DNA of 53,974 nucleotides from positions 1-53,974 of the forward strand of contig CADBIU010000007.1 in NCBI GenBank assembly GCA_902794825.1, read 5' to 3'. Below are positions 6,100 through 48,375 of the stretch, piece after piece (the stretch's first letter is position 1; each line of letters starts with the position of its first letter). Origin of the DNA: an uncultured Lachnospiraceae bacterium. GTDB lineage: Bacteria > Bacillota > Clostridia > Lachnospirales > Lachnospiraceae. The translations under genes were made by a program, and so were the position numbers. Below the pieces are notes generated by a model, which saw only the letters and a list, made by a program, of their open reading frames with translations, was not told the DNA's origin and did no database searches.

Positions 6100-6148
6100 A
6101 AAACAGGCGGGAATTGTCGAGAAAAAACGGGCAAATCACGCCTGTTTT
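6100..6148. repeat. Ten-bp inverted repeat upstream of the Rep-like gene
   Basis: AAAACAGGCG (6100-6109) and CGCCTGTTTT (6139-6148) are perfect inverted copies with 29 bp between them, ending 34 bp before the Rep-like start. This could be the Rep nick/origin hairpin, a regulator site, or part of an mRNA leader. Confidence 0.5.
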
Positions 6149-6182
6149 CAAGTCCATAAGAATATTAAACCTGGGAGCTGCA

Positions 6183-6989
6183 GTGAGTTACGTTCAGAAA
6201 AAGTACCGGTGCCGGAACACCGTCGAGGTCAAACAATATCATACGGCACGATACGGAGCACCCGGCCAGCCCAGGCAGAAAAAGATCAAGCCGACACCTG
6301 AGGCAGTGAAGAGGCAGAACCAGCGGAGAAAGGAAGAGCACGCCGCGAGGATCATCGAGGCGAACTTCACAGAAGGCGACTATGTGCGAACGCTGACATT
6401 TGAGCCGGCGCAAAGACCGGCAGATATGGACGAGGCAAAAGCGAGATTCAAGGCTTTCTACCAAAAGCTCCGGAAGGAATACCGCAAACGATATTTCGAT
6501 CTCTACTGGATGGCCAACATTGAATGCACTCCGAGAGGAGCATGGCACATCCACTTTATATGCAACGCGATCTTCGGCGGCTCGGACATCATCAAAGAGC
6601 TCTGGCCTTACGGCGGAGTATATGACCAGCTGATCAGGGACATAACGCGGAGCGGCAAGGACCTCGGATCATACATGGCAAAGACTCCGGACAGCACGGC
6701 GGAGGGAGAACACAAGGTATCAGAGGCAAAGCTGACGCACAGCAAGAATCTGGTCATCCCTAAGGCAGAGGAGAAGGTGATCAGCGGATGGAAGCTCAAG
6801 GACGCGCCGAGGATCCCAAAGGGATGGTACCTGATAAAGGAAAGTTACTTTGAAGGCACCAACATGGAAGGGTACCGGTACAGGACATACAAATTGGGGA
6901 GGCTGAAGCCACTACCGCCGAGAGACAGGTCGTGGAAGCCGCCCAGGAGGAAGAGCAGTGAAAGTAGACATTTACATCGCAGGGAATAA
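6183..6989 (+). CDS. HUH endonuclease/Rep-like replication protein
   Basis: 268 residues. The centre has WHIHFICN (the H-hydrophobic-H metal motif of HUH nucleases), followed about 40 residues later by LGSYMAKT, matching the Tyr-Lys helix of rolling-circle Rep proteins. Such enzymes nick one strand at an origin and stay linked through Tyr. GTG 6183 is chosen for its GGGAG; the frame is open upstream to 6114, but that part has no start with a ribosome site. It begins the replication-like module and overlaps the next gene by 32 bp. The alternative is a relaxase-like or non-replicative HUH protein. Confidence 0.72.
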   Translation: MSYVQKKYRCRNTVEVKQYHTARYGAPGQPRQKKIKPTPEAVKRQNQRRKEEHAARIIEANFTEGDYVRTLTFEPAQRPADMDEAKARFKAFYQKLRKEYRKRYFDLYWMANIECTPRGAWHIHFICNAIFGGSDIIKELWPYGGVYDQLIRDITRSGKDLGSYMAKTPDSTAEGEHKVSEAKLTHSKNLVIPKAEEKVISGWKLKDAPRIPKGWYLIKESYFEGTNMEGYRYRTYKLGRLKPLPPRDRSWKPPRRKSSESRHLHRRE

Positions 6990-7434
6990 CCCGCAGCCAA
7001 AAGCGGAAGAAAGGTGGATGGGATACCTGATACAGGCGGAAGGCTACGGCCGGCGCGGCGAGCGCTGCGTTGCCGAGTCGTTCGACGCCACACAATACAA
7101 GGCGACGATCATGATGATCATAAAGGTCCTTGACTGCTTCACAAGGCCGGCAGACATCACCATGCACATTGAGAACGGATGGATCGTGGGCAATCTGATC
7201 CGCACCAAACAGGCGGACAAGACCATGAAAAACACTCTCGAGAAATGGCAGGAAAACGGATGGAAGACAAAGAGGGGCACGACGGTCAAGAACAAAGACG
7301 ACTGGCAGAAACTCTATAACAAGATCCGCGTGTTCGAACAGGCGGAGGGAACATTCAGATTTGAGGTGCTCGATAAGGATGACGAGAACAGGAAAAGGAT
7401 CATCCACGAGATAGAGAGACAAGAGGAGGTATGA
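6958..7434 (+). CDS. RNase H-fold-like phage protein
   Basis: 158 residues starting at GTG inside the Rep-like gene. An opening strand with Asp (VDIYIAGN), a helix (YKATIMMIIKVLDCF), a strand plus W..GW motif and NKDDWQKL follow the order of RNase HI-like proteins. The typical TDS motif is replaced by HIENGWI, so activity is uncertain. RNase H enzymes remove RNA from RNA-DNA hybrids, which would suit a replication module. The assignment rests on pattern only. Confidence 0.45.
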   Translation: MKVDIYIAGNNPQPKAEERWMGYLIQAEGYGRRGERCVAESFDATQYKATIMMIIKVLDCFTRPADITMHIENGWIVGNLIRTKQADKTMKNTLEKWQENGWKTKRGTTVKNKDDWQKLYNKIRVFEQAEGTFRFEVLDKDDENRKRIIHEIERQEEV

Positions 7435-7435
7435 C

Positions 7436-8053
7436 ATGGAAAAAATGAGAGTAAGGCTGACATTCATCGATGACATTCTGGGGACAGCTCCCTCGGATCC
7501 TGAGATACACCGCTCGTATATCGCGAGCAAGGCTCCGGATGCGATGTCGACGGAGGAAGAGGTCGCGGCCCTGGGCGTGGATGAAGTGACAGAGAAGGGA
7601 ATGACAGTGTTCCACAAGGACGCGGACGGTAATCCAGTGCTGTGGAACTATCAAATCAAGGGCTTTTTCAAAAGCGCCTGCAGCGCAATGAGAGCCCTTG
7701 AGGGCACAAAGTCCTCGAAGCTCAAGGCCTACAAGAAGCAGATCGACCTGAGGATCTTCGTGTTCGCGGATGAAAAGAACAGGGCGGAGAGAAAGATCCC
7801 GATCAGCGTCTCCGGAGAGATCGGAAGCTGTCAGCGTCCCCTGAGGGCGCAGACCATGCAGGGAGAAAGAGTCACGCTGGCCAACAGCGAGAGCATCCCG
7901 GCAGGCTCCAGTGTGGAATTTGACATCGTGCTCCTGGAACCGAAGGACAGGGCGATGATTGAGGAGTGGCTCGATTACGGCTCGCTCAACGGCATCGGCC
8001 AGTGGCGCAACTCCGGCAAAGGTGCTTTCACATGGGAGTACGTTAAAAGCTGA
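7436..8053 (+). CDS. Conserved phage protein with RAMP-like C-terminus
   Basis: 205 residues, GGAGG before ATG. I recognise the general form from Clostridia phages (start RLTFIDDILGTAPSDPEIH; YQIKGFFKSAC; CQRPLRAQTMQGE) but know no proven function. The end (GSLNGIGQWRNSGKGAFTW, about 183-201) is a glycine-rich loop reminiscent of RAMP/Cas6-Cas7 RNA-binding folds. It stands directly before the large degenerate repeat array, so binding to that array as DNA or RNA is an attractive hypothesis. This is inference. Confidence 0.6.
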   Translation: MEKMRVRLTFIDDILGTAPSDPEIHRSYIASKAPDAMSTEEEVAALGVDEVTEKGMTVFHKDADGNPVLWNYQIKGFFKSACSAMRALEGTKSSKLKAYKKQIDLRIFVFADEKNRAERKIPISVSGEIGSCQRPLRAQTMQGERVTLANSESIPAGSSVEFDIVLLEPKDRAMIEEWLDYGSLNGIGQWRNSGKGAFTWEYVKS

Positions 8054-8897
8054 GGCATAGTGACGAACAGCCTGGTAGAGGCTTTGCATTTAAATGAACT
8101 GCTAAGGAATAGCATAGCGATGCGAAGGCAAGGCTGTGAAAAGAAACGCTATGCGCAGGAAATGCATTCCGTTGAAACGATTTGATGAGCATGGGAATAG
8201 TGTGGAATGGCTGGGCAGGGGAATGGTGAAGCAATGAACTGAAAAGCTACGGCCAGCAAAGGAAATGCGGTGAACCGGTGAGAGTAGCGTCGGAATAGCA
8301 TTGCCCGGACTGGATAGGAAAAGCAGTGGAAAAGCGGAGCATAGAAATGCAATGGCATAGATGAGAATGGCACAGATGGGCAACGGAAAAGCGAAGAGAT
8401 GAGCAGCGGCGATGAATAGCAGTGGAATTGCATGGACGTGAACTGATTGGCAGTGGAACTGCATTGAACAGAAAAGCCGAGGAAGAGCGTTGCTCGGATG
8501 AGAAATGAAATGGCATGGAGAAGAACAACGTAGAGTTGTATCGGAAGAGCATGGCCAAGACAAGCAGTGGCATAGTACGGAATGGATACGCGTTGGAATA
8601 GCAGGGCGATGAACAGTTTTGCGGCGGCGATGAATAGCGAAGAAATGCGGGGGCAGAGCTTAGCTGAGAAGGGACTAGAACAGCTGGGGAAAAGTTGCGC
8701 GGAGATTGGAAGGGCCACGGAGAAGTGATGATATGAAAAAGCGGTGGAATTGAGGAGCGCAGCAGAGCACAGCAGAGGAATTGAAGCGCACGGTATCGCC
8801 ACGGAACTGAACCGTTCAGTTCCGAACTGCAATGGGACTGAATTGCATAGGATGGCAGCGGCATTGAATCGCCGGGCAGTGCATGGGAATCGATCAG
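8054..8897 (+). repeat. Degenerate GGAANNGCA repeat array (non-coding)
   Basis: About 840 bp without any plus-strand gene. It is made of irregularly spaced, purine-rich near-copies of a 9-11 bp unit, best written (A/G)NTGGAANNGC. Examples: GGAATAGCA at 8106, 8292 and 8595; GGAATTGCA 8424; GGAACTGCA 8455; GGAAATGCA 8158; GGAAATGCG 8261; GGAAAAGCA 8317; GGAAAAGCG 8328 and 8385; GGAATGGCT 8204; GGAATGGTG 8220; GGAATTGAG 8746; GGAATTGAA 8777; GGAACTGAA 8803. All are in the same orientation. Plus-strand frames are full of stops. It is not a CRISPR, because repeats are short and spacing is uneven. Confidence 0.85.
8802..8824 (+). other. Perfect stem-loop near the right end of the array
   Basis: CGGAACTGAA (8802-8811), loop CCG, TTCAGTTCCG (8815-8824) form a 10-bp perfect stem that contains one array unit and its complement. 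No T-run follows, so it is not a terminator. It may be a protein-binding hairpin in DNA or RNA. Confidence 0.65.
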
Positions 8898-8909
8898 AAA
8901 GGAAAGGCT

Positions 8910-9455
8910 ATGGCATTATACGAAAAATTTGGCGAGTTTGACTCGTCAGCGGAGATCAACCGAAAAGCGGAGGAACTATTCAACGCCGGAGATCTCGACG
9001 GGCTAAGGAATCTGGCCTGCGAGAACGGGATCCCGGACGACTTCACGGAAATGTATATCGAGGGGGAGATCGAGCAGCTCTGCGACGACCAGGTCGCCGC
9101 AGTGGGAAAGATCGACATGGAGATTGACGAGCTCCAGCCGATCGAGATCCTCGTGGACTGGGCCGACTACATCAAGGCCCAGTGCATGGAAGACGACCTC
9201 TTCTGCAGACAGGTCCGCAGGAGGGGAAAGAGCCTCGAAGGATGTATCGCAGAGATCGCTATATGGTCGCTGATCCACGCGCAGCCATTGTCAGAGAACA
9301 TCATCAAGGCAATGGAAAAAGCTGGCAAGGAGCATGAGAAAGAGCTGAAGGCAGCGGGGATCGAACAGCGGTGGATCCGCTATACAAAAACTGGCGCTCC
9401 CGGATCCGCGAGGACAAGGCAGATCATCCGGGAATACTACATGGGAGGTAAGTGA
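8910..9455 (+). CDS. PcfK/AcrIIA9-family-like protein
   Basis: 181 residues, acidic. The KFGEFDS start, the residue pattern KGKSLEGCIAEI in the middle and the IIREYY end match, as I recall them, proteins annotated in the PcfK-like/Cas9-inhibitor AcrIIA9 group. PcfK comes from conjugative plasmid pCF10; AcrIIA9 members inhibit Cas9. The start at 8910 follows AAAGGAAAGG; an in-frame ATG at 8883 lies within array sequence. It precedes a PcfJ gene with one gene between, as PcfK and PcfJ often travel together. Anti-CRISPR activity is not shown by the sequence. Confidence 0.5.
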   Translation: MALYEKFGEFDSSAEINRKAEELFNAGDLDGLRNLACENGIPDDFTEMYIEGEIEQLCDDQVAAVGKIDMEIDELQPIEILVDWADYIKAQCMEDDLFCRQVRRRGKSLEGCIAEIAIWSLIHAQPLSENIIKAMEKAGKEHEKELKAAGIEQRWIRYTKTGAPGSARTRQIIREYYMGGK

Positions 9456-10018
9456 TGAGACTGGCATATAAAGCATTCAATGCGGACCTGACCTGCACGA
9501 TGGGCAGGGGAACATTCCAGTACGAGCCGGGAATTTGGTACGAAGAGAAAGAGGCAAACTGTGTGAAGAATGGCTTCCACTGTGCGAGCAATCCGCTTGA
9601 CTGCATGAATTACTACGGCTCATGGGATGATCACCAGTTTTGGATCGTAGAGATTGACGGAGATATCGATGAGGATGGTACCGACACGAAGATCTCGGCG
9701 ACAAAGATCAGACTGTACAGGCGCCTCAATCTGCAGGAGTTCTTGGCACACGCGATTTCGTACATTTACGAGCACCCGGCGCTGGAAATGAATCAGAGAG
9801 TGAAGACTGCCAATACAGAGATGACAGACACGGATAAGTTCGTGATTGTGAGGAACTTTAAACCGAGAGCGATGGCAACAAAGATAGGACAGTATATCGG
9901 CCTGATCAAAGAGAACCCGGGGAACAGGAACGAGATCGAGGCAGCGGGCCTGTTCTACGTGGACGGAATAAACACAAAACCATACATGTGGTATGACGTG
10001 GAGGGAAGAGAATGCTGA
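9455..10018 (+). CDS. DUF7666-like phage protein
   Basis: 187 residues. The first 50 residues (YKAFNADLTC, then NGFHCASNPLDCMNYY) match a small domain common in phage and mobile-element proteins with unknown role. GGGAGG precedes ATG 9455. It sits between the PcfK-like and PcfJ genes and overlaps the latter by 7 bp, implying one transcript. Confidence 0.6.
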   Translation: MRLAYKAFNADLTCTMGRGTFQYEPGIWYEEKEANCVKNGFHCASNPLDCMNYYGSWDDHQFWIVEIDGDIDEDGTDTKISATKIRLYRRLNLQEFLAHAISYIYEHPALEMNQRVKTANTEMTDTDKFVIVRNFKPRAMATKIGQYIGLIKENPGNRNEIEAAGLFYVDGINTKPYMWYDVEGREC

Positions 10019-12171
10019 GAAAGCAGCAACTGTTAGAGCTACCGATCCTCATCCCTAATGTGAGAGGCGTGGGAGCCAGGGCGGAAGTCCTTGAGATCGA
10101 CAATGAAAAGGTCCTTCACATAGACGTGGTGGACGACGGCGACGTCATAATCAGATATTTTGCCAATTATGGGAAATCAAGATGGATTGTCTACGGAAAC
10201 GCAGCCAAATGGAACCAGATGGGATTCTCCAGCGCGATCGATTATGAGCTGAGCAGAGGAGATTACTATTATGACTGCTATGGAAGGGCGTACAGCGTCA
10301 CGTCAACACCTGCATTCGACGAAACGGCAGCGGTCGTAGAGGAATATTTCAATAAGGTCGACGTGTTCTACTGGATGCCAAGTGCAGAACGCAGGCTGAC
10401 TGCATGGGAGATTGAATGCAGGTCAATGAAGAGGGAGCAGTATATCGTGAACCGACATACAAAGATCGCAGAGATCATGGACAGGGTACCGCAGATCCCG
10501 GAGGGCTTCGAGAAGTGGCTCCGGGAGGATGTCTTCGGAACAGACTACCTGTACACGAAGAAAGAGGGGAAAAAGACAAAGTATCACTGCACGGCATGCG
10601 GAGCAGAGGGCGCCAGGAAGATGAGCGTGAAGATGGGGCAGGATACGACCTGCCCAAAATGCAAAAGGCCGGTGAAGGTAAGGAGTCTGAACCGGCAGTA
10701 CAAGCCGCAGAGAGAACACATCGTGCTCATGCAGAACATGAAGCTGCCGAGGAGAAAAACAGACCTTTTGTGCGGATTGCTCTCGGACAGGGACGGGTAT
10801 GTGGTCAGACAGATGACGGTAGAGTGCCGGCATGGGCAAGGCGGGAAAGAACTGGAAATCTTCGAGGATGTCCGGGCAGTCGTATCAGCTGGAGAAAACT
10901 GGGGCAAGTGCTATTACGGAGAATACACGAAAGGTACTCCGGAATCACAGTCTTTTTACGACAGAAATCCGAGCAACAGGAGATGGAGAAGCTCGTACCT
11001 GTATCCATGGAACCTTCAGGAAGTGCTTCCGACAGCGGGCATGGAGCACAGCGGACTGGATATCATTGCAAACAACAATGTGAAACTCAATGTGGATTTC
11101 TTTGTAGTCAACTACCCGAAAAGGACGTGGATTGAGTATCTCATAAAGGCGGGGCTCTACAGACTGGTAAAGGATATCACGGATGGCTCAATCTGGGGCG
11201 GCGCCTATGGGATCGAATACGGCACAAGCCTGCAGGAGTGCTTGGGCATCGACGGGGCTGGCGTGAACAGGATGAAGCAGACAAACGGAGGCCTTGCGAC
11301 GCTCGCATGGCTGAAGACGGAAAAGGAGACAGGTAAGCGGATCACACAGGAGTCCATACAGTATTTCGCCGAGCAGGAGGTAAGCCCGGAAAATAAGGAC
11401 ATAAAGCAACTGATGAAACTCATCGGATCCCCTAATAAGCTGGCCAATTATCTCAGGAAGCAGCAGGAGAAGACGGGATACGCAGTATCAACGATCATGA
11501 ACACCTGGAACGACTACATGAGCATGTGCAGAAGGCTCAATAAGCAGATGGACAATGAGATGGTCTATAAGCCGAAGGACATACAGCTCGCGCACGACGA
11601 ATGCCTTGCGCTGCTCAAGAGAGAAGATGCGGGAAGACGAGCCGCAGAGGTCCGAGAGAAGTTCCCGGAAGCAGAACTGAATCTGCAGATGATCGCGGAT
11701 AAGTATAACTTCATAAACGATGAGTATCAGATCATCGTCCCGGAGAGCATTGAAGACATCATTGTCGAGGGTTCAACGCTGGGTCACTGCATAGACAGGA
11801 CAGACGTATACTTCGAGCGGATCCAGAACAGGACCTCTTATCTGGTATTCCTCAGAAAGGCCGAGAGGCCGGAGGCTCCATGGTACACACTGGAGATCGA
11901 GCCCGGCGGGACGATCAGACAGAAGAGGACCGTAGGAAACACACAGAGGGATTCAGATATCAAGGCCTTCACACCTTTCCTCCGGGAGTGGCAGAAAAAC
12001 GTACTCAGGAAGATGAACAGGGAAGACAGGGCGCTGGCGCAGGCCTCGAAGGAAGCAAGGCTCGAAGAATATGGACAGCTCCGCGCGAGGAAGGAGCCGA
12101 TCCGCAACGGCCTGCTCAGAGGACAGCTCCTCGCGGACGTCCTGGAAGCGGACCTCATGGAAGCGATGTAA
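10012..12171 (+). CDS. PcfJ-like protein
   Basis: 719 residues. A zinc ribbon (CTACG and CPKCKR, about residues 193-224) occurs in the N-terminal half. The C-terminal PcfJ domain carries GSTLGHCIDRTDVYFERI (about 586-604), TSYLVFLRK and WYTLEIEPGG. PcfJ is a conserved protein of conjugative plasmids and of many Firmicutes phages; its biochemical role is unknown. Here it follows the PcfK-like gene, repeating the pcfJ/pcfK association in a phage replication region. Its size is usual for the phage versions. Confidence 0.82.
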   Translation: MLRKQQLLELPILIPNVRGVGARAEVLEIDNEKVLHIDVVDDGDVIIRYFANYGKSRWIVYGNAAKWNQMGFSSAIDYELSRGDYYYDCYGRAYSVTSTPAFDETAAVVEEYFNKVDVFYWMPSAERRLTAWEIECRSMKREQYIVNRHTKIAEIMDRVPQIPEGFEKWLREDVFGTDYLYTKKEGKKTKYHCTACGAEGARKMSVKMGQDTTCPKCKRPVKVRSLNRQYKPQREHIVLMQNMKLPRRKTDLLCGLLSDRDGYVVRQMTVECRHGQGGKELEIFEDVRAVVSAGENWGKCYYGEYTKGTPESQSFYDRNPSNRRWRSSYLYPWNLQEVLPTAGMEHSGLDIIANNNVKLNVDFFVVNYPKRTWIEYLIKAGLYRLVKDITDGSIWGGAYGIEYGTSLQECLGIDGAGVNRMKQTNGGLATLAWLKTEKETGKRITQESIQYFAEQEVSPENKDIKQLMKLIGSPNKLANYLRKQQEKTGYAVSTIMNTWNDYMSMCRRLNKQMDNEMVYKPKDIQLAHDECLALLKREDAGRRAAEVREKFPEAELNLQMIADKYNFINDEYQIIVPESIEDIIVEGSTLGHCIDRTDVYFERIQNRTSYLVFLRKAERPEAPWYTLEIEPGGTIRQKRTVGNTQRDSDIKAFTPFLREWQKNVLRKMNREDRALAQASKEARLEEYGQLRARKEPIRNGLLRGQLLADVLEADLMEAM

Positions 12172-29074: not shown

Positions 29075-31364
29075 GAACGAGGCTAAGATTAAATTCACAG
29101 CCGAGACACAGGAATTCACTCAGCAGCTGAACTCCGCGAACTCAGAGATGTCCTCACTCCGCGCGGAGATGAGACTGGCCGAGGCGCAGTTCAAGAACAC
29201 CGGAGATGGAGCGGAATATCAGCAACAGAGGATGAATCTTCTGGAAGATTCCCTCCAGGCCAACCATGACAAGCAGGAGGCATTAACAGCCAAACTCGAA
29301 GTTGCAAAGCAGATCTACGGAGAGGACTCTGAAGAAGTACAGCGACTTGAAAGATCACTGACGAATGCCAGAACAGAGGAGCAGAACCTTCTCAGCCAGC
29401 TGAATGACACAAATGGAGGCATGGAGCAGCAGAAAGAGGCTGCTGACGGTGCCGGCGGGGCCATGGATGACATGGCCCAGGTCCTGATCAGCGCGGGCAT
29501 AGCGGATAAAATCAAGGAAATCGGAGAAGCTGCCGTGGAGATGGCAGGAGATTTCTCAGAGGCGTCAGCGACGATCGTAGAAGGAACAGGAGCCTCCGGA
29601 GAAGCGCTCGACGGACTGAATAGATCCGCAAAAGCCGCTTTTGGAAGCATAGCTGATGCGGACGCAGATCTTAACAGCATTTCCGCAATTCTTGCAGAGC
29701 TCAACACTCGCTTCGGCGTTACTGGAGACGAGGCAGAGGACCTTACACGAAAGGTCAGCAACTTTGCGCAGCACACAGGTACGGATGGCGTAGGAGCGGT
29801 GGACTCGATCGCAGACATTATGCACAGATGGGGGCTCGACATGGAAGATGTCGACGGGCTCCTGGACGACCTGACCACTGCGAACCAGTCCTGCCAGATG
29901 TCGGTAGACCAGCTTTCCGGGTACCTGGTCAACAACAGTACACAATTCCAAGAATTAGGGTACAGCACTGAAGATGCACTCGCGATGCTGATCTCTCTGT
30001 CAGACGGTGGGGCCAATGTAGGCACTGTCATGTCAGGCCTGACAAAGGGCGTCGGTAACTTGTCAGAGGTTACAGATGATGTTCCGGGAGCCTTCCAGGA
30101 CGCAGTTGACGCGATCGCCGAGTGCGGATCCGTATCGGAAGCGCTGCAGGCGCAGGTAGGAGATACAGGAAAAACAGTAGAAGAGATCTTCGGAAAGAAG
30201 GCGGCGCAGGAACTGGCGACCAATATTCAGAACGGATCCTTCTCGATCGAGGGATGGACGCAGGCCCTGCAGGAGAATGACGGAGCGCTGCAGTCCACTA
30301 CAGAAAACGCGACGACCATGCAGGACGCAATGTCTCAGGCGGCGAACAACGTTTCGCTCGCGCTGGGGAGCACATTCGCGCCGGCGATCGCTGCGGTCGT
30401 TACTCAGGTAGCACAGGTGATCACTCAGGTCGCCCAGGTTGTGCAGGATAGCCCGATGCTTCAGGCTGTGGTCATGGGCGTGGCCGTGGCTCTTGGAATC
30501 CTGGCAGCGGCGCTCGCGATCTCGGCGGTCATTCAGGGAGTGACCACAGCGTTCGGAATGCTGAATACGGTGCTATTGGCGAATCCGATATTCCTGGTTG
30601 TGACTGCGATCGCAGCTCTGGTAGCCGCTCTCATATACGCATATAACAACTGCGAAGAATTCCGCGCGATCGTAAACGCGGCCTTTGCGGCGGTCAGGAA
30701 TGTGGCAACGAACGTGTTCACATCTGTCCGCAACACGGTAACGACCGTATTTAACACGATAAGCAGCATAGCGCATAGCATAAGCGCCACACTGTCCAGT
30801 GTATGGAACGGCATCAGGACCACAGCTTCTTCCGTATGGAACAGCATAAGGTCCACTGCGTCGTCAATTTGGAACAGTATCAGATCTACTGCATCGTCAG
30901 TATGGAACGGTATCAAAACAGCCATCACCAACCCGATACAATCGGCTAGCAGTACGGTACAGGGCATAATCAACAGGATCAAGGGATTCTTCCCTATAAG
31001 CATTGGCAGGATTATGAGCAATATAAAACTCCCGCATTTCTCAATCAGCGGTGAGTTCAGCTTGAATCCGCCAAAAGTACCGAGTTTTGACATCGACTGG
31101 TACGCGAAAGGAATTATCTTCAATGCTCCTACGCTGATCCCCACCATGAACGGAGTCAAGGGAGTCGGTGAAGCCGGACCGGAAGCAGTATCTCCTATCA
31201 GCGTATTGCAGACATACGTCGGAAGCGCCGTACAGAGATACGCTCCGCAGATCGATTATGACCGTATGGGGGAAAAGGTTGCGGGAGCATGCGCGAAGCT
31301 CGGAATCAGTATTGAAGTTGACAAACGCCAGCTAGGCAGAGTCGTCAGGGAGGTGGTCGGATGA
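29064..31364 (+). CDS. Tail tape measure protein
   Basis: 766 residues. A coiled coil occupies the first 130 residues. A TMP-core region follows, then hydrophobic segments (near 470-500 and 515-540) and short tandem repeats TASSVWNSIRS near 585-625. It sets tail length and is ejected at infection. The GTG start overlaps the gpGT end by 11 bp. The size predicts a tail of roughly 100 nm by the usual residue-to-length rule. Confidence 0.92.
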   Translation: MANKNEAKIKFTAETQEFTQQLNSANSEMSSLRAEMRLAEAQFKNTGDGAEYQQQRMNLLEDSLQANHDKQEALTAKLEVAKQIYGEDSEEVQRLERSLTNARTEEQNLLSQLNDTNGGMEQQKEAADGAGGAMDDMAQVLISAGIADKIKEIGEAAVEMAGDFSEASATIVEGTGASGEALDGLNRSAKAAFGSIADADADLNSISAILAELNTRFGVTGDEAEDLTRKVSNFAQHTGTDGVGAVDSIADIMHRWGLDMEDVDGLLDDLTTANQSCQMSVDQLSGYLVNNSTQFQELGYSTEDALAMLISLSDGGANVGTVMSGLTKGVGNLSEVTDDVPGAFQDAVDAIAECGSVSEALQAQVGDTGKTVEEIFGKKAAQELATNIQNGSFSIEGWTQALQENDGALQSTTENATTMQDAMSQAANNVSLALGSTFAPAIAAVVTQVAQVITQVAQVVQDSPMLQAVVMGVAVALGILAAALAISAVIQGVTTAFGMLNTVLLANPIFLVVTAIAALVAALIYAYNNCEEFRAIVNAAFAAVRNVATNVFTSVRNTVTTVFNTISSIAHSISATLSSVWNGIRTTASSVWNSIRSTASSIWNSIRSTASSVWNGIKTAITNPIQSASSTVQGIINRIKGFFPISIGRIMSNIKLPHFSISGEFSLNPPKVPSFDIDWYAKGIIFNAPTLIPTMNGVKGVGEAGPEAVSPISVLQTYVGSAVQRYAPQIDYDRMGEKVAGACAKLGISIEVDKRQLGRVVREVVG

Positions 31365-34023: not shown

Positions 34024-35156
34024 TGGCTATAGATTTAGTAACCGGACACGCCGGAACAGATCACGTATCATCGGCGTCGGCGGGAAGATATAACGCCGGT
34101 GTATGCGGGCTGGAAAAATATGTGCTGGAGACAGGGCAGCAGTTCGCAGCAACAATCGAATCAGCAAATGTAATCAGGATCGCGTCAGGAGATGCTATTA
34201 ACCAGGGCCGGCACATCACCATCCCGCAGAACACATACGAAGATGCTGATATCCTCACCGGAACACAGGGGAAAACAAGAATTGATGTGATTGCACTGCG
34301 ATATACAAAAACGACGCAGGAAGTTGGGGGAGAAGTCATTAGTGTGGAATCTGCCTCGATTGCAGTGATTAAGGGTGCAGAAGTGGATTCCGGAAGTACG
34401 CCGGTAGCACCAGCCATTAATGATGGAGACATCTTCAATGGCGATGTAATAGATGACATGGCCCTGTATCATGTGCTGATCACGGGCTTGAGTATTACTT
34501 CAGTCACCCCGGTATTTACCATTCTGAATAATATCAGAGAGATCAACCAGAAGATTGGCTCTGAGAACATGGGAACATCGGCTCCAACATTAACGGGAGC
34601 AATAAAAGAGATTATCACAAAAATCGGTTCCACCGCGATGGGATCCACGTCGCCCACAATAACTGGTGCGGTCAACGAGATTATCACTAAGATCGGAAGC
34701 ACTGCGATGGGCACAACGGCCACCACGGTAACCGGAGCCATTAAGGAACTGGTAAACAAGATCGGAAGCACTGCAATGGGCACCACAGCCACAACGCTGA
34801 CCGGCGCCATCAAAGAGCATGAGGTCGATATTTCGGCATTGCAGGATACGATGAACAATCAGATGTTCAAAACGGTTGTAAAGATATGGGACAACGTCAC
34901 TATTGGCGCTGATTGGTATTGGCAGTCGAATCCAAGTATCGCACTGACTGGTTACAGGCCAATCGGAATAGTTGGATTCACTGTGTATGCCGCATCGTCG
35001 AGCGGGGTAAATCCAAACTGGTGCATCTTTCAGCGGTGCTACATCACGCCGGCTGATCACCTTGATATGTACGTTTGGAATCAGAACAAAAGTGCAGCGG
35101 CAAAGGTACAGATAGCAGTAAGGGTGCTGTACGTTAAGACAGGGATTGTGTCGTAA
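34023..35156 (+). CDS. Tail fibre/baseplate protein with 22-residue repeats
   Basis: 377 residues. The N-terminal part (about 1-170) has the fold signs of phage baseplate adaptors (DVIALRYTKTTQEVGGE). Four 22-residue repeats with KIGSTAMGTTATT (34552-34815) follow, then a short C-terminal domain (SNPSIALTGYRPIGIVGF), probably receptor binding. The ATG overlaps the previous stop. Confidence 0.7.
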   Translation: MAIDLVTGHAGTDHVSSASAGRYNAGVCGLEKYVLETGQQFAATIESANVIRIASGDAINQGRHITIPQNTYEDADILTGTQGKTRIDVIALRYTKTTQEVGGEVISVESASIAVIKGAEVDSGSTPVAPAINDGDIFNGDVIDDMALYHVLITGLSITSVTPVFTILNNIREINQKIGSENMGTSAPTLTGAIKEIITKIGSTAMGSTSPTITGAVNEIITKIGSTAMGTTATTVTGAIKELVNKIGSTAMGTTATTLTGAIKEHEVDISALQDTMNNQMFKTVVKIWDNVTIGADWYWQSNPSIALTGYRPIGIVGFTVYAASSSGVNPNWCIFQRCYITPADHLDMYVWNQNKSAAAKVQIAVRVLYVKTGIVS

Positions 35157-39566: not shown

Positions 39567-41408
39567 ATGTCAGGACCTATAGCATTTATACTTGCGATGA
39601 TGATCAGCGCGGCTGTCGCAGTCGGGGACGCAGACTTCAGCGGTATCATCGAGGAAGCTGAAAGAATAGAGCAGGAAAGCAAAGAAAAAACTGAAGCGGC
39701 CGAGTATCTGATCGCGATTGATCCGGGACACCAGGAAAGAGGGAACTTCGGACAGGAGCCGATCGGTCCCGGCGCATCAGAAATGAAGACGAAAGTAGCC
39801 GGAGGAACAAAAGGCACATCGACCGGCGTTCCGGAATATCAGCTTACTCTGGATGTCAGCCTTAAACTGAGAGATATTCTTAAGGACAAGGGATACAGAG
39901 TCCTGATGATCCGGGAGACGAACGATGTGGATATAACAAACTCCGAGCGGGCGAAAATGGCCAATGAAGCGGATGCGGATGTATTTGTGAGGATACACGC
40001 CAACGGATCGGAGAGCTCTTCCGCAAACGGCGCAATGACGATCTGCCAGACTTCATCCAACCCTTATAACAGTGAACTCTATGAGAAATCCAGGAGTCTT
40101 TCACAGAAGGTGCTTGACGCCTATACAGAGGCAACCGGAATACGTAAGGAACGTGTCTGGGAAACCGATACTATGAGCGGGATCAACTGGTGCACAGTTC
40201 CGGTCACCATCATTGAAGTCGGATATATGACAAATCCGGAAGAAGATGAAAAAATGCAGGACCCGGACTTCCAGGAATTAATGGCGGAAGGGATCACTGA
40301 AGGGATAGAGAATTACTTGTCGGAGCAGGAGGAAGACGGCGGCACGGGAACAGACGAAGGAGTGGAAGCGTCTTCAGAAGAAGAGACTGCAGAAGAAGAG
40401 ACTTCAGTGGAATCGTCTTCAGAAGAATCGGCGTCAGAGGTAGAGATGCCTGAAACCGATTTATCCAGGGAAGGCGCATCAGAAGCCGCTTCCTCAGAAA
40501 CAGCCGTGTCGGATGAAGATGAGATCGAACCGACGGATGATAAGGAACCGGAGAGCGGCGGGGGAAAAACTGCGAATGAGAGGAAGATCACAGTTTACAC
40601 TGCACCGGCCTCAAAGACAGAGAGATCGGCAAAGGAGCTTGAAAAGATCGTGACGCAGACCGGCGATCACGTGATCAGACGCCGCGAATTGGAAAGATAT
40701 ATCAGAGCCGGCGTCAAAATGGTGAAATTGAAAAAGAGGCTTAATGAGGAGATCGATAAACTCGGAGGAAAGTGGTCGCTGTATTTAAAGCGGATGGACA
40801 CAAATCAGACTATCGGGATAAACGACGATGAGAAGATGGTCGCCGCGAGTCTGATCAAACTCTTTATCGCAGGAGAGTTCTATACTTTGGCCGAAGAGGG
40901 TGAACTCGACGCGGACAGCTTCCGCAGCAGTCCGGACCTGATGATCTCTGCCAGTGACAACGGAGCGGCTAATACCCTTATCAGCGCGTGTACGATGGAT
41001 AAGATCAATGAGTTCGCGCGGGAAAACGGATATGAGGAGACTGAGCTGAACCGCAGGATGCTGGAGTGGAACGGCACAGAAAACTATACTTCGGCCCGGG
41101 ACTGCGGGAAAATGCTCGAGAAGGTCCTAAAAGGAGAATATGTGAGCGAAGAGGCTTCGGAGCGGATCCTGGAGGACCTGCGAAGCCAGCAGAGGACTTC
41201 AAAGATCCCCGCAGGCGTGCCCAAAGAGGTCAAAACCGGCAATAAGACCGGCGAGCTGGATAATGTGGACAATGACGCGGCGATCATATGGGCCCCTGAT
41301 TGTACTTATATTCTGTGCATCATGAGCAGCGATACCGGCGGAAGGATCGCGGAGATCAGAAAACTCTCATCAATTGTATACGATGCAATTGGCGCTTCGG
41401 AGGATTAG
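39567..41408 (+). CDS. Secreted amidase fused to class A beta-lactamase-fold hydrolase
   Basis: 613 residues. A signal peptide or anchor (GPIAFILAMMISAAVAV) leads to N-acetylmuramoyl-L-alanine amidase type 3 (AIDPGHQE about 50-57, RIHANGS, IIEVGYMTNPE). A Glu/Ser-rich linker follows (about 250-350), then a penicillin-binding/class A beta-lactamase fold with SLIK (near 428), SDN (near 463) and KTG (near 559). The first part cuts the peptide from muramic acid; the second may hydrolyse or bind D-Ala peptides or beta-lactams. ATG 39567 has GGGAGG; the longer frame upstream lacks one. It is the first host gene after the prophage. Confidence 0.85.
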   Translation: MSGPIAFILAMMISAAVAVGDADFSGIIEEAERIEQESKEKTEAAEYLIAIDPGHQERGNFGQEPIGPGASEMKTKVAGGTKGTSTGVPEYQLTLDVSLKLRDILKDKGYRVLMIRETNDVDITNSERAKMANEADADVFVRIHANGSESSSANGAMTICQTSSNPYNSELYEKSRSLSQKVLDAYTEATGIRKERVWETDTMSGINWCTVPVTIIEVGYMTNPEEDEKMQDPDFQELMAEGITEGIENYLSEQEEDGGTGTDEGVEASSEEETAEEETSVESSSEESASEVEMPETDLSREGASEAASSETAVSDEDEIEPTDDKEPESGGGKTANERKITVYTAPASKTERSAKELEKIVTQTGDHVIRRRELERYIRAGVKMVKLKKRLNEEIDKLGGKWSLYLKRMDTNQTIGINDDEKMVAASLIKLFIAGEFYTLAEEGELDADSFRSSPDLMISASDNGAANTLISACTMDKINEFARENGYEETELNRRMLEWNGTENYTSARDCGKMLEKVLKGEYVSEEASERILEDLRSQQRTSKIPAGVPKEVKTGNKTGELDNVDNDAAIIWAPDCTYILCIMSSDTGGRIAEIRKLSSIVYDAIGASED

Positions 41409-46872: not shown

Positions 46873-48375
46873 ATGGTAACCAATGATGCTACACTGGTGC
46901 GTCTTAAGCACAAGATCATGGAGGAAACTGCTAAACTGGCATGGGAAGGCAAACTCGACGAAGAGCATAAGGAGAAACTGATCTATCAGATCATTCCGGG
47001 TCCCATGGCGACATACCGCTGCTGTGTATACAAAGAGAGAGAACTTGTTAAGCAGAGGATCAGACTTTCTCTCGCACAGTGTCCTGACGGAATTTCCCAG
47101 TCTGAGAATATTGTACAGGTCATCCGCCCTGCATGTGAGGAATGTCCTCTGTCCGCTTATACTGTAACGGATAACTGCCGTCTGTGCATGGGCAAGGCAT
47201 GTATCAATTCCTGTAAGTTCGGCGCGATCTCGATCGGTGAGCGCAGAACTCATATCGATCCCAATAAGTGCAAAGAGTGCGGCATGTGCGCGAAGGCCTG
47301 CCCTTACGGCGCGATCGCTCATCTTGTACGTCCCTGCAAGAAGGCCTGCCCTGTCGGCGCGATCACTTATGATGACAACGGCATCTGCGTCATCGACGAG
47401 AGCAAGTGCATCCAGTGCGGTCACTGCATCCACTCCTGTCCTTTCGGCGCGATCGGATCCAAGACCTATCTGGTGGACATCATCAATGATATCCGCGCGG
47501 GCAAGGAAGTCATCGCCATGGTCGCTCCCGCTACAGAGGGACAGTTCGGCGGAGATATCACAATGAAGTCCATCAAGGAAGCTTTCCTCAAGATGGGATT
47601 TGCCGATATGATCGAAGTCGGTCTGGGCGGCGATATGACAGCGGCTTATGAGTCCATAGAATGGTATGAGGCCAAGGAAGAAGGCAAGAAGATGACCACT
47701 TCCTGCTGCCCCGCTTTCATGAACATGATCAAGAAGCACTTCCCCAAGCAGTACGAGGAGAATGTATCCGCTACGGTTTCTCCTATGTGCGCGATCTCCA
47801 GATATCTTAAGGCAACACGCCCCGGCTGTGTGACAGTATTCCTCGGCCCCTGCATCGCTAAGAAGTCTGAGGCGGCTGACAAGAGCATTCCGGGCAACGC
47901 CGATTATGTTATCACTTACGGTGAGTTCCGCGCGCTCATGCGCTCCAAGGGAATCCAGGTTGAATCGGATGACAACTCCTATCAGGAATCCTCGATCTGG
48001 GGCAAACGCTTCGCTACATCCGGCGGCGTAGCGAACGCGGTTCTCGAGTGCATGCACGAGAGAGGACAGGATACTTCTCATATCACCTATGTACAGGTCG
48101 CGGGCGGCACAGAGTGCAAGACAACTCTGACAATGCTCAAGGCCGGACGCCTGAAGGAAGACTTTGTAGAAGGCATGATCTGCGAGGGCGGCTGCGTAGG
48201 CGGACCTTCCAAGCATAAGACAGAGATGGAGATCAAGAGAGCCAGAGAAGGCCTTCTCAAGCAGGCGGACGGCCGCAAGGTCCTCGAGAACCTCAAGTCT
48301 TATCCTATGGACAAGTTCTCCATGTACCGCGACGGCCACATGGACGAAACCTGCAAGGTCGAGATCAACGGCTGA
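46873..48375 (+). CDS. Monomeric [FeFe]-hydrogenase-like iron-sulfur protein
   Basis: 500 residues. The N-terminal half bears many Cys clusters, among them two 4Fe-4S ferredoxin motifs (CKECGMCAKACPYGAI and CIQCGHCIHSCPFGAI). The C-terminal half has H-cluster-type signatures: TTSCCPAF (near 276-283), GPCIAKKSE (near 325-333), MICEGGCVGGP (near 435-445). The TSCCP and PC.AKK forms recall the less-studied group B enzymes rather than classic HydA. It may make, use or sense H2. AAAGGAG precedes ATG; single-gene unit ending at the 48437 hairpin. Confidence 0.85.
   Translation: MVTNDATLVRLKHKIMEETAKLAWEGKLDEEHKEKLIYQIIPGPMATYRCCVYKERELVKQRIRLSLAQCPDGISQSENIVQVIRPACEECPLSAYTVTDNCRLCMGKACINSCKFGAISIGERRTHIDPNKCKECGMCAKACPYGAIAHLVRPCKKACPVGAITYDDNGICVIDESKCIQCGHCIHSCPFGAIGSKTYLVDIINDIRAGKEVIAMVAPATEGQFGGDITMKSIKEAFLKMGFADMIEVGLGGDMTAAYESIEWYEAKEEGKKMTTSCCPAFMNMIKKHFPKQYEENVSATVSPMCAISRYLKATRPGCVTVFLGPCIAKKSEAADKSIPGNADYVITYGEFRALMRSKGIQVESDDNSYQESSIWGKRFATSGGVANAVLECMHERGQDTSHITYVQVAGGTECKTTLTMLKAGRLKEDFVEGMICEGGCVGGPSKHKTEMEIKRAREGLLKQADGRKVLENLKSYPMDKFSMYRDGHMDETCKVEING

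Follow-up and report, generated by a model that had tools for sequence, protein, structure and literature searches.

In our opinion the non-coding DNA at positions 8049-8912 of the window, by which we mean the whole stretch of 53,974 nucleotides from an uncultured Lachnospiraceae bacterium, quite probably represents a long guide-RNA array of a minimal VIPR-like system. VIPR, the Viral Interference Programmable Repeat, combines a RAMP protein (Vipr) with an RNA called vrRNA (PMC13142463, bioRxiv 2026.04.26.720920 v2). The array of the window and the RAMP gene next to it belong together as one cassette.

The mechanism that we propose is as follows. The array would be transcribed together with the adjacent RAMP gene, and copies of the 205-aa protein would line up along the RNA, each bound to one pentad, as RAMP structures and VIPR suggest. 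Each copy would hold the near-invariant G and its neighbours, leaving the two most variable bases exposed. By analogy with phrog_4652 and VIPR, the exposed dinucleotides would jointly specify a target DNA by non-contiguous base pairing, and this DNA would most likely lie in competing phages. The binding of the array RNA by the RAMP protein is the strong step of this scheme, being suggested by the fold and by VIPR. As to the purpose, we lean, with less confidence, towards a guide directed against rival phages, which is again an argument from analogy.

The array, its RAMP gene and an empty site

The features that the argument needs are the following, all on the plus strand.

6958..7434, plus strand: left flanking gene with a weak PHROG RNase H-like match, not part of the cassette
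7435..8909, plus strand: the whole cassette (gene and array), missing as one piece from the contigs L337 and L338
7436..8053, plus strand: RAMP-superfamily (Cas7/Csm3-like) protein of 205 aa, here called family 1, the presumed RNA-binding partner (AF2 model, structure search)
8049..8912, plus strand: non-coding pentad array, the presumed precursor of a vrRNA-like guide RNA (lattice HMM, autocorrelation and shuffles, spectrum, unit print-out, composition, row count)
8910..9455, plus strand: right flanking gene, not part of the cassette

A preliminary description of this DNA had placed an array with a strand bias at 8054-8897 and had seen no plus-strand gene there. All of this holds: between 8054 and 8907 the plus strand is G-rich and C-poor (A 0.33, C 0.16, G 0.35, T 0.17) and every plus frame is full of stops. 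The lattice HMM, which follows G in steps of 5 and sometimes of 4 or 6, takes 8049-8912 as a single array of 167 lattice positions, 98% of them G, with a mean step of 5.199 nt. The spacing had been called uneven, which we have to correct, since the steps are regular: a second parser counts 136 of 5 nt, 30 of 6 nt and one of 3 nt. According to the unit print-out, the unit is a pentad G[A/C]ANN, mostly GAANN and GCANN, and about every 5-6 units comes a hexad, mostly GCNNNG. Rows of 5-6 units make up 22 of 31, and a row mostly ends in the hexad GCNNNG, after which the next begins with GAANN or GCANN. Over 67 arrays, one of them from the second family discussed below, the number of pentads between successive hexads peaks at 4-5.

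The motif GGAANNGCA noticed earlier is thus the junction between the hexad GCNNNG and the following GAANN or GCANN, that is, a fragment of a continuous lattice. At least 15 near-copies of this 9-mer had been counted, all in one orientation. The orientation is right and the number can be reached if mismatches are allowed, whereas the literal GGAANNGCA occurs only 8 times on the plus strand and 0 times on the minus strand. This is nevertheless far above composition-matched shuffles (0.37 expected, maximum of 3 in 1000 dinucleotide shuffles). Similarly, GGAANNGC is present in 14 copies against 0.97 expected, and GAANNGC in 29 copies on the plus strand and 0 on the minus strand against 3.5 expected and a shuffle maximum of 10. 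Autocorrelation, which the same description had suggested, reveals a finer period of ~5 nt beneath the 9-mer, with peaks at lags 5, 10/11, 15/16, 21, 26, 31, 36, 47, 52, 57, 62, 67 and 78. The G-spectrum of the array peaks at 5.21 nt with a value of 40.1. Shuffling the dinucleotides 500 times never gave more than 12.3, and 1028 other segments of equal length from both strands of the window did not exceed 12.2.

A search of the array against Rfam gave no match at E <= 1 and no structured 3' tail was recognised; a promoter and terminator scan yielded nothing clearly above shuffles. Inside the array, towards its 3' end (8802-8824), two perfectly complementary 11-nt arms separated by 1 nt form an inverted repeat. 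Elsewhere in the window repeats occur at 30801-30915, 34569-34775, 40361-40446 and 47287-47460, direct ones with unit lengths of 33, 69 and 15 nt and a spaced one of 36 nt; these lengths are multiples of three and the repeats are perhaps coding.

The gene at 7436-8053 had been labelled RAMP-like, and rightly so. The AF2 model has a RAMP fold over the whole protein and in a structure search matches Csm3 and type VII Cas7, while the sequence profile of family 1 is similar to type VII Cas7 in its C-terminal part. Near the C-terminus there is a conserved GLGQWRNSGKG-like stretch, which we read as the G-loop. On the contrary, the PcfK/AcrIIA9 label given to the gene 3' of the array, the right flanking gene at 8910-9455, finds no support, as no family match is obtained in Pfam, PHROGs, NCBIfam or PADLOC. 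DUF7666 and PcfJ-like genes are also located 3' of the array, and a rolling-circle-type (REP_ORF2/G2P) initiator is encoded at 6114-6989. The phage of the window looks like a prophage.

Two IMG/VR contigs, L337 and L338, carry close relatives of the Rep gene of the window phage (89% and 80%), and in neither of them was the RAMP gene or the array found anywhere. The left flanking gene is 37% identical to L337:10788-11219 and, over 127 columns, 37% identical to L338:10753-11247. The right flanking gene is 45% identical to L337:11224-11709, which is in turn 70% identical to L338:11293-11784. The two flanking genes of L337 are immediate neighbours, the first stopping at 11222 and the second starting at 11224; those of L338 have 42 nt between them (11250 and 11293). 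Hence 7435-8909 behaves as one dispensable cassette, and the array is separable from the Rep protein. It had been suggested that the array is a replication origin for this Rep-like protein; two relatives that retain the Rep gene without the array speak against it. A more distant Rep relative, L339 (63%), has neither gene nor array, and its DNA near Rep is not alignable to the window.

Co-occurrence of gene and array in related loci

A search of related loci for a like array was among the checks proposed earlier. We collected 128 loci with a family-1 gene, 68 from IMG/VR and 60 from GTDB genomes, which comprise 125 distinct genes and 118 clusters at a 15-mer Jaccard of 0.3. An array is present within 1.5 kb of the gene in 116 of the 128 loci, in all 116 on the strand of the gene and in 0 on the opposite strand only; 106 of the 118 clusters hold at least one. 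The gap between gene and array is 100 nt or less in 114 of 124 cases (median 28.5 nt). By a slightly stricter count, arrays are downstream of the gene in 76 loci, upstream in 30 and on both sides in 9. The largest has 391 lattice positions (L047). Among genomes related to the host of the window, 3 of 99 have a family-1 gene, the window's own included, and in two related genomes gene and array are both present. Judging by the record titles of unverified bins, the loci come from Clostridia, Coriobacteriales, Synergistaceae, Saccharibacteria, Chloroflexi and others. A single strain, Porcincola intestinalis Oil+RF-744-WCA-WT-11, has two family-1 loci with arrays (L197 and L199).

Among the loci where no array was called, L016, L067, L200, L202 and L215 have the end of the contig within the gene or within 30 nt of it; in L065 the contig starts 277 nt before the gene and that stretch holds no array. 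Short pentad stretches can be seen by eye in L029 and L204 and a GC-rich one in L192, and in L173 there are arrays more than 1.5 kb away. In L205 (a Lokiarchaeota bin) and L208 the gene is accompanied by no recognisable array. Near the diverged family-1 gene of L208 (position 8717) the strongest periodicity, of 5.13 nt, is one of A instead of G, which may indicate a variant array. The array call in L022 proved to be a true coding repeat (pentapeptide repeats) and was excluded.

The converse test starts from other genes. With DNA polymerase, the conserved phage ORF described below, the Rep gene and SSB as bait we fetched 113 loci; a PcfJ-like gene used as bait retrieved no locus. Strong arrays are found in L216, L224, L294 and L341 only, each with a RAMP gene, and these are the already known contigs of L066, L087, L138 and L002. 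L217, which is the contig of L065, has the RAMP gene and lacks the array. No RAMP gene was found in the remaining 108 loci, five of which were flagged by the array scan: L232, L251 and L279 give weak or short signals, and in L255 (8574-8827) and L256 (21-198) near-identical 18-nt direct repeats, probably a coding repeat, mimic the lattice score. Given that these 108 loci have neither a RAMP gene nor a strong array, such arrays are not a general feature of phage DNA of this kind.

When the neighbourhoods are compared (BLASTP clustering of plus-strand ORFs of at least 55 aa within 3.5 kb), no gene is common to most family-1 loci; SSB is the commonest, in 22 of 129 loci. Comparison of related arrays shows which positions change. 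The G of the pentad differs in 1.7% of cells and the G of the hexad in 0, positions +1 and +2 differ in 10-11% and positions +3 and +4 in 13.7%, and the differences have a 5-nt period. With +1 and +2 changing almost as often as +3 and +4, the division into a fixed triplet and a free pair is softer in family 1 than in VIPR. In addition, arrays that otherwise defy alignment have blocks of 30-100 nt in common, many of these blocks coming from one related group.

The phrog_4652 family and the decoding of its arrays

A second RAMP family, phrog_4652, gives us a point of comparison. Its set comprises 79 loci, obtained from the best 80 of 159 matches; a pentad array is near the gene in 75 of the 79, with 0 on the opposite strand, and L140, L141, L147 and L148 are without one. 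The mean step of the arrays is mostly near 4.93, and in L004, L063 and L058 the array follows the gene. The unit, as judged from three arrays, is GGY/NN-like, mostly GG or GT, then a pyrimidine and NN, and in two printed arrays the rows have about 12-17 units and mostly end in the 4-mer GGCA. One neighbour gene (median 165 aa) is common to 74 of the 79 loci. Three phage contigs (L004, L063 and L058) have both RAMP families, each with its own array type; in the window's own genome no phrog_4652 gene was found.

The phrog_4652 profile matches PDB entry 36pp, 'SUSP1 Vipr protein' (36pp_D, E 9.9e-38), and judged by this profile phrog_4652 is Vipr. A search of INPHARED at E <= 1e-3 returned 151 records, 90 of them over at least 80% of the query, including Felix O1-like (weak, 22% identity), mycobacterial and Gordonia phages; among the 60 matches listed nearly all are annotated hypothetical. 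In Citrobacter phage Mijalis (L152:7690-7890 and 9090-9460) pentad tracts of ~12-16 units are split by a repeated sequence that looks hairpin-like by eye, and similar split tracts were seen, by eye only, in Pseudomonas phage LESphi2 (L153:4580-4900). These tracts stand beside a phrog_4652-like gene annotated hypothetical and are probably separate vrRNAs.

VIPR was reported in 2026 as a possible ancestor of CRISPR. In the characterised systems the vrRNA has 9-16 YNNGG repeats and a structured 3' tail, and its NN letters pair with dsDNA, one target base being skipped per unit; the role is repression of competing phages, and the evidence comes from sRNA-seq, pull-down and repression (PMC13142463). 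Seven types are described, some with overlapping vrRNAs, with the consensus GGY/NN 'or a related consensus', and an accessory gene, vap, is 'typically' present, so that it is no strict requirement (PMC13142463). Our literature search on VIPR and vrRNA found no report besides this one.

We searched both strands of 2.1 Mb of fetched loci, with arrays masked, by spaced seeds. When the NN at +3 and +4 of phrog_4652 arrays are read with a 1-nt skip, long matches appear. Skips of 0, 2 and 4 give no long matches and the top matches at a skip of 3 are homologous arrays. For the array L091:3680, 35 of 38 letters agree with an ORF in L066:10249, identified by Pfam as a family A DNA polymerase (E 5.4e-24), and 34 of 38 with the relative of this ORF in L065. 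In more DNA the polymerase target is found in six contigs, with scores of 33-36 against 23 in reversed DNA. The array L004:1254 matches a conserved phage ORF in L138:6225 (30 of 36), L081:5708 (24 of 28) and L087:2108 (24 of 28). This ORF, which we take to be single-strand annealing protein-like, has no Pfam support. In both targets the skipped base is codon position 3. Thus, the 1-nt-skip rule of VIPR has been found again independently, with two natural targets of phrog_4652 arrays, neither of which is mentioned in the main text of PMC13142463.

The same approach gave no convincing target for 138-140 family-1 arrays, be it with constant or shifted readings, with varied informative positions or with the hexad shift left free. 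A trial of 39 rule variants, run on 3.3 Mb of loci, gave family-1 scores of 20-28 at best, with 18-26 in reversed DNA; for family 2 at a 1-nt skip the figures were 30 and 18. Other trials used 15 rules with a constant step, then 8, 23 and 4 rules, and 5 rules on 0.36 Mb more. Homologous arrays aside, the top scores are near the nulls, some up to 6 points above, examples being 28 vs 22, 24 vs 18 and, for L041 to L190, 24 vs 19. Three of the best above-null matches were inspected. The matches of L159 to L249 (36 of 50 letters), of L041 to L295 (43 of 60, in frame in a 74-aa ORF) and of L207 to L301 (50 of 72), each with a contig within 24-28% GC, are not counted as targets. A scan of IMG/VR with one 16-letter spaced pattern returned 30 matches whose flanks, at 33/240 and 72/240, are chance-like, and dinucleotide usage as a signature of coding targets was not discriminating. 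From the family-2 rate (2 of 86 arrays) about three family-1 targets would be expected; the absence of a convincing one hints, weakly, at a different code or a different set of targets in family 1.

Hammerhead ribozymes, which are reported for some VIPR arrays, were absent from 15 loci at Rfam's thresholds. Folding of the RNA of 30 family-1 arrays gives z values of -0.32 against dinucleotide shuffles and +0.27 against shuffles of unit order; the corresponding values for 15 family-2 arrays are -0.79 and -0.09, with +2.07 for the reverse strand. Unfolded RNA as a sign of single-strand binding was considered and rejected, as the plus-strand array RNA is no less folded than shuffles.

Alternative readings and relation to known systems

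The earlier proposal of a transcribed scaffold RNA with the RAMP-like protein as its partner comes near to the reading that we prefer, in that gene and array do co-occur, but what the relatives suggest is more than a scaffold, namely a guide RNA. In its pure form this proposal says that the array RNA is a RAMP-coated filament, or a sponge which soaks up a host RNA-binding protein, and that the dinucleotides have no message. The lack of a convincing family-1 target would agree with it, as would arrays of up to 391 lattice positions, far beyond the need of one guide, and rows of 5-6 units that offer only 10-12 variable letters. We nevertheless consider it improbable. The phrog_4652 arrays do carry a message, as their targets indicate (PMC13142463), and +3 and +4 are the most changeable positions of family 1. 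The recurrence of blocks of 30-100 nt between non-alignable arrays also speaks against it, with the reservation that recombination alone could explain such blocks. A decoy for host factors, which had been suggested too, is not supported.

Less probable still is that the array acts as double-stranded DNA, with a G every half helical turn (5.2 bp) and a protein filament on it, as an origin or partition site. The helical repeat of DNA is 10.4 bp and the mean pitch of 5.2 is half of it. In 91 of 102 arrays, moreover, the lattice shows greater regularity than after shuffling of its rows, but misplaced hexads in the parse could mimic this, and for the same reason we do not accept a rigid long-range lattice. 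The array is, however, on the strand of the gene in 116 of 116 cases whether it lies upstream or downstream. In phrog_4652 the mean pitch is mostly near 4.93, resulting from 4-nt junctions every ~12-17 units in two printed arrays, and in Mijalis the tract is interrupted by other repeated sequence, hairpin-like by eye. The two relatives that keep Rep without the array and the partner fold, which is that of RNA-binding CRISPR subunits, do not fit a DNA site either. We therefore do not adopt a half-turn DNA lattice, given the strand and cassette evidence and a mean pitch that is particular to each RAMP family. Finally, a degenerate coding repeat or a minus-strand gene has, in our view, practically no chance. 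It is true that minus frames are open at 8102-8563, 8149-8832 and 8247-8864 (153-227 aa), but all three minus frames are low in stops at once (1, 1 and 6 of 284), as composition predicts, the plus frames have 15-19 stops per 284 codons, and the differences between related arrays follow a period of 5 nt.

Returning to the guide-RNA reading, the question is how close family 1 stands to VIPR. Both have a small phage-borne, RRM-based RAMP protein with a G-loop (in family 1 by our own reading of the conserved stretch) and, next to its gene and on the same strand, non-coding pentad repeats with conserved and variable positions. They differ in that the family-1 consensus is G[A/C]ANN with a loosely kept triplet, not GGY/NN; that a hexad comes about every 5-6 units; that rows are mostly of 5-6 units, compared with the 9-16 repeats of VIPR, in arrays of up to 391 positions; and that no vap-like common accessory gene was found and no target was decoded. 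The family-1 profile has no match to SUSP1 Vipr (36pp) at E <= 1, and in a profile-profile comparison families 1 and 2 are barely alignable (48 C-terminal columns only, probability 11.8, E 0.0025). It is likely that family 1 works like VIPR. Whether it is already among the seven VIPR types seems to us evenly balanced; that it is a VIPR type is not established, since consensus, repeat number and homology are equivocal and the accessory gene is missing.

A spacing of ~5 nt along RNA is also known from TRAP, the trp RNA-binding attenuation protein, which makes base-specific RNA contacts about every 5 nt; TRAP is a ring with about 11 sites and a fold unrelated to RAMP, whereas here there are many more units and a RAMP protein. 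The type VII and type III-A CRISPR effectors, Cas7 and Csm3, share the RAMP fold over the whole family-1 protein, type VII Cas7 also the C-terminal profile similarity, and CRISPR RAMP chains rank top in the fold lists of both RAMP families. Unlike CRISPR types III and VII, the window has no CRISPR-like repeat family according to general repeat scans, neither of them a dedicated CRISPR finder, and a Pfam scan found no cas family among nine neighbouring proteins. The pentads of family 1 differ likewise from the six-base register of class 1 CRISPR RAMPs (PMC13142463).

One may speculate, and we regard this as conceivable if somewhat doubtful, that family 1 is a separate, accessory-free RAMP-guided branch outside the seven VIPR types, nearer to type VII Cas7 and with its own guide code, an intermediate between VIPR and class 1 CRISPR. 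On this supposition its G[A/C]ANN pentads, arranged in short rows closed by a hexad, might be read by a rule other than a uniform 1-nt skip, which we hold to be similarly tentative. Our findings point to family 1 as a second RAMP family that is widespread (128 loci), uses another repeat grammar and has no accessory gene that we could find. With one protein of ~200-236 aa and one RNA it is possibly among the smallest RNA-guided systems, and it makes testable the discontinuous reading of a guide, the extra base every 5-6 units and the relation to type VII Cas7.

With our analysis, such stretches can be given an interpretation in at least 191 loci (116 of family 1 and 75 of phrog_4652). In Gordonia phage Pipp a Vipr-type array region (L149:5638-5907) is annotated as a protein-coding gene, gp43.
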